From IMG/VR virus record IMGVR_UViG_3300034105_000354, positions 1 through 21,062 of that record: a stretch of 21,062 nucleotides of DNA. One strand, written 5' to 3'. Of the stretch, positions 4,693 to 20,514 are shown piece by piece. The position numbers and the translations under genes were made by a program. The number at the start of each line of letters is the position of its first letter. Position 1 is the first letter of the stretch. This stretch comes from a virus. The notes under the pieces were generated by a model, which was not told the origin of the DNA, made no database searches, and saw only the letters and a list, made by a program, of their open reading frames with translations.

Positions 4693-5241
4693 TTATTTGT
4701 TTTTATTATGTTCTATTACTTTCATATTCATATCATATATAGCTTCTAAACGTAGTATCATTACATTGTGGTGTTCTGTATCTTTTGTTTGATTTAAAAG
4801 GTTGTTTAAGTTGTTTATGATTTTGTATTCGTATGCTGCTTTTTCAAGTTTGTTGATTCTTAAATTACTTTCTTGTAATTCAATTTCTAATTCAGATACT
4901 CTTAAGTTTTTCTTTTTAAGTTCTAATCTTAATTCTTCATTATCTTCTGTGTTTAAAATGTTTTCTTCATCCATTTGATTTACTATTATGTTTCTTAAAC
5001 TTCTTAAATCTCTATTAAACTTTTCATACATTTCATAATTGTTTAAAGAATGTATTACTGTTGCGTGATTCTTATTTACTGATTCAGCTATCTCTTGTAA
5101 TGTCATTTTAGGTTTAAAATGCTTTACCAAATAAAAGTATAATGCTCTTGCTTCTATTATACTATGCTTTCTACTATTTTTAGAAACATCTATATCAGTT
5201 TCTTTTAATATTATTTCTTTTAATCTTTCTGTTATTTCCAT
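4693..5241 (-). CDS. DnaA domain IV-like DNA-binding protein with coiled coil (182 aa)
   Basis: Residues about 5-75 resemble the C-terminal DNA-binding domain of the replication initiator DnaA. A basic helix (SRKHSIIEARALYFYLVKH) is followed by LQEIAESVNKNHATVIHSL, where NHATVIHS matches the DnaA signature (DHTTVLHA in E. coli). The AAA+ domain is absent. Residues about 97-150 form a charged heptad-like coiled coil (ELRLELKKKNLRVSELEIEL), probably for dimerisation. It may bind phage or host origin DnaA boxes, either to start phage replication or to compete with host DnaA. It is followed within 1 nt by small genes and preceded by an exonuclease gene. Confidence 0.8.
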   Translation of the reverse strand: MEITERLKEIILKETDIDVSKNSRKHSIIEARALYFYLVKHFKPKMTLQEIAESVNKNHATVIHSLNNYEMYEKFNRDLRSLRNIIVNQMDEENILNTEDNEELRLELKKKNLRVSELEIELQESNLRINKLEKAAYEYKIINNLNNLLNQTKDTEHHNVMILRLEAIYDMNMKVIEHNKNK

Positions 5242-8517: not shown

Positions 8518-8922
8518 TTAAATTTTTATTAAGTTATATTTATTATTATTATTTTTTATGTATGTTCTAACTGAAGAATAATCATATTGTAATGCATCAC
8601 AAGCTGCTTTAATTGTATCGTAAAATATTCCTGTATTTAAATCTAATACTTCTTTAGCATAAGGATTTTTGCTTCCAGTTTGATTTCTAACTCCTTTTTC
8701 ACATTTATATATTTTTTGAAATTCTAATTCTTTTTTAAAAGCATCATTTAAATCTTTAGTAACATATAAAATATTTACAGCATCATTATCAATACAAAAT
8801 CCACTTTTACTATTATGCTTCCATAATCTTTTTTGTAAATTAGTTGTAACTCCTATATAATTATCTAATAATAAATGATAAATTATAAAATCTTTTCCTT
8901 TAATTTTTTGTAATTTGCACAT
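8518..8922 (-). CDS. GIY-YIG homing endonuclease with NUMOD1 (134 aa)
   Basis: The N-terminal nuclease domain has a degenerate GIY strand (IIYHLLL, Tyr15), then NYIGVTTNLQKRLWKH with the YIG motif (22-24) and catalytic Arg32. Glu65 in KKELEFQK is the metal ligand. Residues about 90-125 (KEVLDLNTGIFYDTIKAA and onward) match the NUMOD1 DNA-binding module. It is a free-standing selfish endonuclease set between the sigma factor gene (2 nt) and the next gene (1 nt). No intron boundary is apparent. Confidence 0.85.
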   Translation of the reverse strand: MCKLQKIKGKDFIIYHLLLDNYIGVTTNLQKRLWKHNSKSGFCIDNDAVNILYVTKDLNDAFKKELEFQKIYKCEKGVRNQTGSKNPYAKEVLDLNTGIFYDTIKAACDALQYDYSSVRTYIKNNNNKYNLIKI

Positions 8923-8924
8923 AA

Positions 8925-9467
8925 TTAATAAATTTGATTATAATCGTTGTTGGAATAATCGTCATATTCTTTTTGAAATTTTTGTTTTAAAATAATCTTA
9001 TAATTTTTAATACTATGGAATATTGAAATTAAACTAATTGTAGTTCCTGTCGCAATATCTCGCATAGATAAATCATTATCACGATATAGTTTAAATAAAA
9101 GCATATCATAATGATTCCAACTTTTTATCTCATCATCAATTAACATACATATATCATTATATGCCTTGTGTTCTTCTATGTTTGAATCATCAAATAATTC
9201 CCAGCATCCATCAATAGGAACTTTTGTTATCTTTTTCTTTTTGTTATAATATTGGTAAAATAAAGAACGTAAAGTAAAGTATACATAACCTTTTCTTACA
9301 TTGCCATTTTCGTCTATTATCTTTTCAGAAGAAGCATATTTCCATAAAGCAATATACGTTTCTTGTACCAAATCTTCAGCATAATCGTATTCACCAAATT
9401 TATGGATTATTTCAATCCATTCTTTATGGTGTTTTGCTACTTTTTCCAGCCAGTTGAAGTTGTCCAT
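8925..9467 (-). CDS. ECF-like sigma-70 family factor (180 aa)
   Basis: Region 2 is seen at residues about 24-75: YDYAEDLVQETYIALWKYAS contains the A-E-D-L-V-Q-E-T hallmark that contacts core RNA polymerase and the -10 region. Region 4 at about 118-160 has a helix-turn-helix (LSMRDIATGTTISLISIF) for -35 recognition. With regions 1 and 3 missing and a length of 180, it is ECF-like. It would redirect host polymerase, probably to late genes. It overlaps the upstream membrane-protein gene by 31 nt. Divergent region 4 residues leave activity unproven. Confidence 0.8.
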   Translation of the reverse strand: MDNFNWLEKVAKHHKEWIEIIHKFGEYDYAEDLVQETYIALWKYASSEKIIDENGNVRKGYVYFTLRSLFYQYYNKKKKITKVPIDGCWELFDDSNIEEHKAYNDICMLIDDEIKSWNHYDMLLFKLYRDNDLSMRDIATGTTISLISIFHSIKNYKIILKQKFQKEYDDYSNNDYNQIY

Positions 9468-12301: not shown

Positions 12302-12309
12302 CAAATATA
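12302..12309 (-). promoter_or_regulatory. Probable Bacteroidota promoter -7 element
   Basis: TATATTTG on the minus strand matches TAnnTTTG, 31 nt upstream of the first ATG of the erf-ssb unit and just after the NinG terminator. The -33 region has only CTTT/ACTT at suitable spacing. The position between terminator and operon is the strongest support. Confidence 0.55.
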
Positions 12310-12359
12310 TAACTGTTTTTAATATAAAAGTGTTAATGAAATGTTAAAGTTTATAAAAT

Positions 12360-12392
12360 AAAAAAGGGACACTAATTAAAGCATCCCCTTTT
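12360..12392 (-). terminator. Intrinsic terminator after the NinG gene
   Basis: On the minus strand AAAAGGG and CCCTTTT form a 7-bp stem around a 17-nt loop, continuing into a short U-run (TTTTTTATTTT). It lies 27 nt after the NinG stop. The loop is longer than usual, so it is less certain than the terminators at 1.45 and 6.5 kb. Confidence 0.65.
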
Positions 12393-12418
12393 CTAACAAA
12401 CAATTTAAAAAACAAGAA

Positions 12419-12802
12419 TTATAAAGAACCCAAAAGAGAAGTATATTTATCAATCATTTCAACTAAATCTACATCAGCAAATTTAACTATTTGTTTTGAT
12501 TTAATTAATAAATTGTCAGGTAAGTTATTGTCAAACTTTGTTAAATACTTTGAAAAAGCATATTGCATTCCCTGATTTGTGATGTTGCATCCATAACATT
12601 GTACACCTACATTATTTTCATCCCATCGAGTTGAATAATGTCTACGTGACATAAAATGCCCACATTGAAGTTTTTTATAATGGTCTTTTTTACCACAAGT
12701 AACACAAGTAGCAATATCATCAATAGCATCTTTTCTTCTAATGTATTGTGAAAAGACTGTATCTAATTTTATTACTAAACTTTTTCTTGTTGGCTTTTTC
12801 AT
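12419..12802 (-). CDS. ninG: NinG/Rap-like recombination nuclease (127 aa)
   Basis: The core has cysteines at 33 and 36 (CVTCGK), then LQCGHFMSRRHYSTRWD (Cys47, His49, His55) and VQCYGCN (Cys69, Cys72). This is the zinc and HNH-like arrangement of lambda NinG (Rap), a Holliday-junction and D-loop endonuclease. The protein is shorter than lambda NinG, lacking most of the N-terminal part. It is the first early gene after the late block and has its own terminator. A -7-like TATATTTG ends 4 nt upstream of the ATG. Confidence 0.85.
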   Translation of the reverse strand: MKKPTRKSLVIKLDTVFSQYIRRKDAIDDIATCVTCGKKDHYKKLQCGHFMSRRHYSTRWDENNVGVQCYGCNITNQGMQYAFSKYLTKFDNNLPDNLLIKSKQIVKFADVDLVEMIDKYTSLLGSL

Positions 12803-12806
12803 TTGT

Positions 12807-12832
12807 CAAATATATTTAGTATAAATTAACAA
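12807..12832 (-). promoter_or_regulatory. Possible promoter giving a leaderless ninG mRNA
   Basis: TATATTTG (12814-12807) matches TAnnTTTG, with TTG at 12832-12830 spaced 15 nt away, shorter than usual. Transcription would start at or very near the ATG at 12802, leaving no leader. Confidence 0.35.
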
Positions 12833-12863
12833 TTTTAGTTAAAAACTTTATTTTTAAATAGTA

Positions 12864-12892
12864 TTGTTTTAATTTTTTATCCTGTAACTTTG
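12864..12892 (+). promoter_or_regulatory. Bacteroidota-type promoter on the plus strand
   Basis: TTG (12864-12866), 18 nt, TAACTTTG (12885-12892) match the Bacteroidota primary-sigma consensus. It points toward the late genes, against all annotated transcription. The predicted start is near 12898, followed by a very A-rich transcript. Two TAnnTTTG-like sites face the other way nearby, so the gap may be a divergent control region. Confidence 0.5.
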
Positions 12893-12896
12893 CCTT

Positions 12897-12985
12897 GTAA
12901 TCAAAAAAACAAAATAAGTATTTAAAAAAAGATTAAAATAAATAACCAAAAAGAAACAAAATAAATAACAAAAAACAAAGTGTGG
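12897..12985 (+). repeat. A-rich tract with short direct repeats in the late/early gap
   Basis: From 12901 to 12980 the plus strand holds 57 A and 12 T, the reverse of the T-rich plus strand elsewhere. AAAATAA recurs at 12911, 12935 and 12958 (spacing 24 and 23), and AAAATAAATAAC occurs twice (12935-12946 and 12958-12969). It could be the leader of a plus-strand RNA, a bent-DNA or iteron-like protein site, or simple low-complexity DNA. No gene longer than 19 codons starts in it. Confidence 0.5.
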
Positions 12986-13007
12986 AGAAGGCAATTATAT
13001 GCCAAAT

Positions 13008-13142
13008 TTATCTACCTTGACCTTTGTATTTCTTTTGATAATTTTTAGAAGATTTTAATTTAGAAGATTTTGTTTTTGAATGTACTCCAGGTCTTGAAAT
13101 ATTAGTTTCTATACGGGTAGAAACCACCGTCTGTTTTGCCAT
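13008..13142 (-). CDS. Small basic protein (44 aa)
   Basis: MAKQTVVSTRIETNISRPGV, then a Ser/Lys-rich tail with SKNYQKKYKGQGR at the end. I recognise this R-P-G-V-H-x-K ... S-K-N-Y-K-K-x-Y-x-G-Q-G-R pattern as a recurring short protein of Bacteroidota phages, without a known role. Strong positive charge suggests nucleic-acid or membrane-surface contact. It overlaps the end of the spanin gene by 34 nt and is the last gene of the late block. Confidence 0.7.
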   Translation of the reverse strand: MAKQTVVSTRIETNISRPGVHSKTKSSKLKSSKNYQKKYKGQGR

Positions 13143-20030: not shown

Positions 20031-20116
20031 TATTTGTCTTTATTTAGTTTGTTTAAAAATACCTCTAACTTTTTTACGTTAGTTTCTTTTGGCTTGTATG
20101 TTTCTTTTTTATTCAT
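20030..20116 (-). CDS. Tiny basic peptide (28 aa)
   Basis: MNKKETYKPKETNVKKLEVF followed by LNKLNKDK. It fills the gap between the HNH gene and the BppU-like gene exactly, with ATGA at its start and TAATG at its end. It may be a short structural peptide or a coupling frame that keeps ribosomes on the message past the HNH gene. Confidence 0.45.
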   Translation of the reverse strand: MNKKETYKPKETNVKKLEVFLNKLNKDK

Positions 20117-20514
20117 TTTTTTTGATAATGTAACAAACCATTTTTTACTGCGTGTAAATGATTTTCATAATTTGTAACCCATTCCAAATTTTCAAGTCTA
20201 TTATCTGTTTTTATACAATTAATATGATTAACTTGTTTTTTGTTTTCTATATTTTCTATAAAAGATTTTGCGACTAACTGATGTACTAAATGATTTTTTT
20301 TAATACCATCAATATTTAATGTACATCTACAATATCCTTTTGGAGTTATCCAAAAAGAAATTAATTTTCCTTTGTAAGTATAAAAATCTTTTTTGGTAGG
20401 AATAAAAGGATTTGTCATTTCTATTTTCCTTGTAATACTTTTTACCCTACCTAAATTACTTACTTCATAATAGCCATTGTATCCACTTATTGGCTTCCAA
20501 ATTTCTGTTTGCAT
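20113..20514 (-). CDS. NUMOD4/HNH homing endonuclease (133 aa)
   Basis: The N-terminal NUMOD4 motif is EIWKPISGYNGYYEVSNLGR (residues 4-23). The HNH nuclease follows: LVHQLVAKSFI and QVNHINCIKTDNRLENLEWV, with the conserved H-N-H pattern and C-terminal NLEW. It is a free-standing selfish endonuclease between the connector and fibre genes. The N-terminal and C-terminal domains are complete, so it may be active. No intron signature is seen around it. Confidence 0.9.
   Translation of the reverse strand: MQTEIWKPISGYNGYYEVSNLGRVKSITRKIEMTNPFIPTKKDFYTYKGKLISFWITPKGYCRCTLNIDGIKKNHLVHQLVAKSFIENIENKKQVNHINCIKTDNRLENLEWVTNYENHLHAVKNGLLHYQKK

Follow-up and report, generated by a model that had tools for sequence, protein, structure and literature searches.

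The window analysed here, a stretch of 21,062 nucleotides (positions 1 to 21,062 of IMG/VR virus record IMGVR_UViG_3300034105_000354), has no evident plus-strand genes, in agreement with the first-pass annotation. It does contain a rightward promoter match followed by an A-rich sequence beside ninG, which raises the question of what this site might express against the direction of the rest of the genome. The first-pass annotation offered two answers, a small antisense RNA resembling lambda oop that delays lysis, or the leader of an unannotated plus-strand unit. On balance, the somewhat more probable explanation is a divergent and probably operator-controlled transcription slot, with an A-rich RNA of about 100 nt as its cargo in this phage. 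The features concerned are listed in table 1.

The one-way layout was also found in six assembled relatives (29.3–32.1 kb), in which nearly all ORFs lie on one strand (ORFs picked: 0–186 bp on the plus strand versus 26.7–28.6 kb on the minus strand). In four of the six, a stretch of at least 100 bp from one end recurs in the other half, as in circularly closing contigs. A megablast search of the 11–15 kb part of the window gave no match in phage records, and isolates provided only distant matches to ninG and the lysozyme, those to ninG being in Riemerella, Polaribacter and Bacteroides phages. A ninG scan of genome contigs gave only four matches, at 29–41% identity, and therefore no host was found. 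Nevertheless, the promoter type, the A-rich leaders and the distant ninG matches suggest a host in the Bacteroidota.

Several other minus-strand genes of the window have recognizable domains. A 180-aa protein (8925–9467) matches Sigma70 region 2 at E 4.5e-5, slightly short of the Pfam cut-off, and is a possible phage sigma-like factor. A 182-aa protein (4693–5241) carries a DnaA C-terminal DNA-binding domain (E 5e-10) and is possibly a replication initiator, and the GIY-YIG and NUMOD4/HNH proteins (8518–8922 and 20113–20514) are probably homing endonucleases.

Table 1. Features of the region between ninG and the last late gene.
Feature	Position	Strand	Basis or remark
ninG, anchor gene on the early side	12419–12802	-	Pfam NinG E 7.8e-8; PHROG 5034
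-7 box TATATTTG, candidate divergent ninG promoter	12807–12814	-	equivalent box in relatives by inspection
Palindrome TTAAC-N7-GTTAA, possible operator	12826–12842	none	between the two promoters
-33-like TTG	12864–12866	+	rightward promoter, spacer N18
-7 box TAACTTTG	12885–12892	+	predicted start near 12897 (G at -5)
A-rich non-coding tract, presumed RNA	12897–12984	+	all three frames stopped in the A-rich part
3' motif AACAAAAAACAAAGTGTG common to A-rich tracts	12967–12984	+	sequence comparison
44-residue gene, last late gene here	13008–13142	-	stop codon bounds the cassette

The rightward promoter reported at first pass, TTG-N18-TAACTTTG, is present on the plus strand at 12864–12892 and conforms to the Bacteroidota pattern of a -7 TAnnTTTG with a -33 TTG at N17–23. 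The housekeeping promoter of this phylum consists of TTTG at -33 and TAnnTTTG at -7, and in F. johnsoniae the latter has the refined form TAHHTTTG (PMC6847099). The nn bases of the window promoter, which is predicted from sequence, include no G, whereas the type D box carries G at the first n, and some relatives are without the -33 part. In the F. johnsoniae numbering the G of the -7 box is at -5 (PMC6847099), which gives the start predicted in table 1. Taken alone, the match is ordinary in the window: TAnnTTTG was counted 48 times versus 44 expected, and TTG-N17-23-TAnnTTTG gave 9 plus-strand and 3 minus-strand matches versus 4.7 and 2.4 in shuffles. The match is not significant from the window alone, and the promoter is credible only because it is kept in relatives.

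A lysozyme query detected about 55 close IMG/VR relatives, mostly at 76–96% identity. Many of these preserve the gene order lysozyme, spanin, 44-residue gene, intergenic region and ninG, with the intergenic region before ninG in distinct versions. Two scans anchored on ninG gave 121 upstream regions in addition to the window, of which 112 differ from one another within the first 100 nt. In 57 of the 109 IMG/VR regions long enough for this count, a plus-strand TAnnTT[TC]G box was located 69–72 or 79–82 bp from the ninG start, compared with a mean of 0.17 matches per offset elsewhere, many of the regions being related to one another, so that these counts and those of the palindrome below represent non-independent events. 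The nn positions of the box vary (AC, AA, AT, CC, GT), and the remaining positions are nearly constant. A -33-like TTG stands at N22 from the box in type B relatives, and a -33 element was absent when looked for in the L053 group. Where extra sequence or an inserted gene lies beside ninG (L012, L015, L124, L157, L180, L203), the cassette remains on the late side. Both the promoter and the tract that follows it are kept in relatives, and the conservation that had been suggested as a check was thus observed.

Between the box and the ninG promoter lies a palindrome, whose N7 version is the only match in the window. The form TTAACANNNNTGTTAA occurred once per locus in 29 of 300 loci (some of which overlap), and was 22–23 bp from the ninG start in 17 of 17 cases of the ninG-anchored set. 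A relaxed form, TWAAC-N6-GTTWA, was found between the box and the ninG promoter in 39 of 112 regions, versus 0.65 expected. The palindrome overlaps the expected place of the -33 element of the ninG promoter, which makes an operator role plausible. The arrangement resembles the lambda-type promoter/operator region in that a palindrome separates two divergent promoters, and in that one of the cargo types described below has weak HTH matches; it differs in that no repressor gene was identified in the window phage. On the other side of ninG, a terminator-like hairpin with a T run (12360–12393, minus strand) lies just downstream of the gene and the next TATATTTG box is at 12302–12309, suggesting that ninG would be a single-gene unit.

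The sequence after the rightward promoter is unusual in composition. Positions 12901–12980 contain 57 A, 12 T, 4 G and 7 C, which confirms the A and T counts given at first pass for the most A-skewed 80 nt of the plus strand. The excess of A over T peaks at 12899 (46 per 80 nt), versus 28 for the runner-up on the plus strand (at 12355) and 31 for the best among 200 first-order shuffles. The tract was rejected as coding sequence because of the stops noted in table 1, and short ATG ORFs beyond the 3' motif were also rejected, being lost in L189, L012 and L180.

A tract of this kind might work as DNA, namely as a transcription-dependent origin at which the rightward transcript remains paired with the T-rich template, forming an R-loop where the DNA melts readily, and primes replication. 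The minimal origins oriF and oriG of T4 span about 100 bp, have little homology, and each consist of a promoter and an A+T-rich unwinding element (PMC3016281), a definition that also describes the window promoter and the roughly 100 bp of A+T-rich DNA following it. There is one such site per genome, adjoining recombination and replication genes, and in all four assembled relatives with the tract, no other plus-strand site is as A-skewed; it lies 90–307 bp from ninG there. However, in the two assembled relatives whose slot holds other cargo (G006, G005), no plus-strand site elsewhere reaches the same A-skew, and the GC skew of the assembled relatives does not change sign across the site. The tract also preserves specific words, not merely composition, and differs from the T4 origins in its strong strand asymmetry and specific 3' motif. 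Its absence from some relatives argues against an origin of the T4 type, and an R-loop origin is considered quite unlikely.

Folding gave no indication of a structured RNA. No consensus pairs were found in a 12-row alignment of A-rich tracts, the mean z of the 3' part was about -0.25, and hairpins were weak and no better than shuffles on either strand. Rfam covariance models did not match the window, the cassette or the loci of eight relatives, and no account of such an element was found in the literature. These data also bear on the idea that the late operon is terminated or insulated by a zone on the T-rich minus strand, the plus-strand promoter being secondary. The tract starts directly past the last late stop codon, and some relatives can pair AAAAGCA...TGCTTTT ahead of a long minus-strand T run, but given the weakness of the hairpins, and a fixed plus-strand box and versions C, D and E of the slot that would be left unexplained, such a zone is an unlikely main function.

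Among type A sequences, the mean pairwise difference was 0.00 for the box and 0.04–0.08 for the first 60 nt of the tract, compared with 0.17 (p44) and 0.40 (ninG) at third codon positions. At 0.19, the 3' part of the tract shows no stronger conservation than the third positions of p44. The type B cassette differed by 0.06–0.17, versus 0.165 (p44) and 0.26 (ninG) at third positions. Recombination instead of constraint may contribute to the low divergence of the cassette.

The comparison of relatives showed that the slot is occupied by different cargo. The first type consists of A-rich tracts, which are window-like in L010, L015, L022, L024, L033, L124, L149 and L220, and of type B in L006, L007, L012 and others. 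Further A-rich tracts were found in L053/L167/L171/L178/L203, the L159–L192 group, L155, L204, L218/L219/L244, L154/L256/L265, L181, L196 and L225. They can be partly aligned across relatives, with common words that include AACAAAATAAG and ACAAAGTGTG, and they make up a diverged family of unstructured non-coding sequences.

The second type of cargo comprises plus-strand ORFs of 48–52 codons, types C and D, which are related to each other. The variable sites of type C are distributed over the three codon positions as 6, 3 and 12, favoring third positions, and searches of PHROGs, Pfam and phage records gave no match to the type C protein. The A-rich tract could in principle be the decayed remnant of such a gene, since it occupies the same slot and both are A-rich. 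Against this, many diverged phages carry the A-rich family, with its 3' motif conserved and its divergence low, and the type C frame showed no similarity to the tract by eye, making decay a very improbable origin.

The third type, E, is a protein of 136 aa that could regulate the two divergent promoters; its C-terminal part gave weak HTH matches (E 0.008–0.08, below curated cut-offs). In L177, L185 and L223 it is encoded on the plus strand, by an ORF about 100 nt away from the start of ninG. The fourth, type F, is a sequence after the plus-strand box that is not A-rich; in L168, L253, L258, L259, L172 and L273–L277 a conserved TACTTCCAATGCGTTG...GGAAGCTGTTTGGAACAGGTAA replaces the tract, with no Rfam match. 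The presence of plus-strand ORFs in the slot of other phages lends weight to the unannotated plus-strand unit that the first-pass annotation had named as its alternative. As the same slot holds other RNAs or small proteins in relatives, it probably serves as an exchangeable cassette for regulation and not as an antisense switch acting on the lysis genes.

RNAs of the lambda oop type act as cis-antisense RNAs, overlap their target gene on the opposite strand and end at an intrinsic terminator. The window promoter likewise opposes the main direction of transcription and would be expected to give a short RNA. It faces the 44-residue gene, the spanin and the lysozyme with no strong terminator between, and an antisense RNA across these genes would delay lysis. 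However, the conserved part of the cassette extends only to the last late stop codon, whichever gene carries it, and this boundary also holds where the 44-residue gene is missing (L053, L218, L154). The type C ORF ends a few codons into the antisense strand of the 44-residue gene, that is, within the overlap. The late stop boundary disfavors the cis-antisense role originally proposed, to which only a small probability is now assigned. Unlike oop, the conserved part overlaps no target gene and the slot is exchangeable with protein genes. No convincing rightward terminator of the oop intrinsic type was found between 12897 and 14089, and antisense read-through is therefore possible.

According to the favored explanation, the site would be a divergent control region where the late block meets the early block in an otherwise one-way genome. 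A promoter of the Bacteroidota main-sigma type, directed away from ninG, would serve the exchangeable slot, probably early and through the host RNA polymerase, and the palindrome between the promoters may bind a regulator controlling both directions. In the window phage the product would be an unstructured, A-rich non-coding RNA of about 90–110 nt, ending near the last late stop codon; in relatives the slot would supply diverged versions of the tract, small proteins, or the protein with weak HTH matches. Judging by composition only, the RNA may act in trans, for instance as a ligand of a host factor favoring A-rich RNA, such as ribosomal protein bS1, and not by pairing with lysis mRNAs.

The suggestion of bS1 derives from F. 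johnsoniae, in which adenines are preferred upstream of start codons and their binding by bS1 was raised as a speculation (PMC6847099). In a specific form of this idea, the A-rich RNA family would occupy a host factor preferring A-rich leaders (bS1 or the 30S subunit) and shift translation in hosts that initiate without depending on Shine-Dalgarno pairing, in a slot exchangeable with small proteins; this is regarded as a long shot.

If transcribed, the cassette would be the sole rightward unit evident in phage genomes that otherwise run one way, and would define a slot where RNAs and small proteins take each other's place under a common control region. Early regulators or takeover factors of a large group of uncultured phages could then be sought in a compact place, and the A-rich cargo would be a candidate class of unstructured RNA overlooked by searches based on RNA structure.
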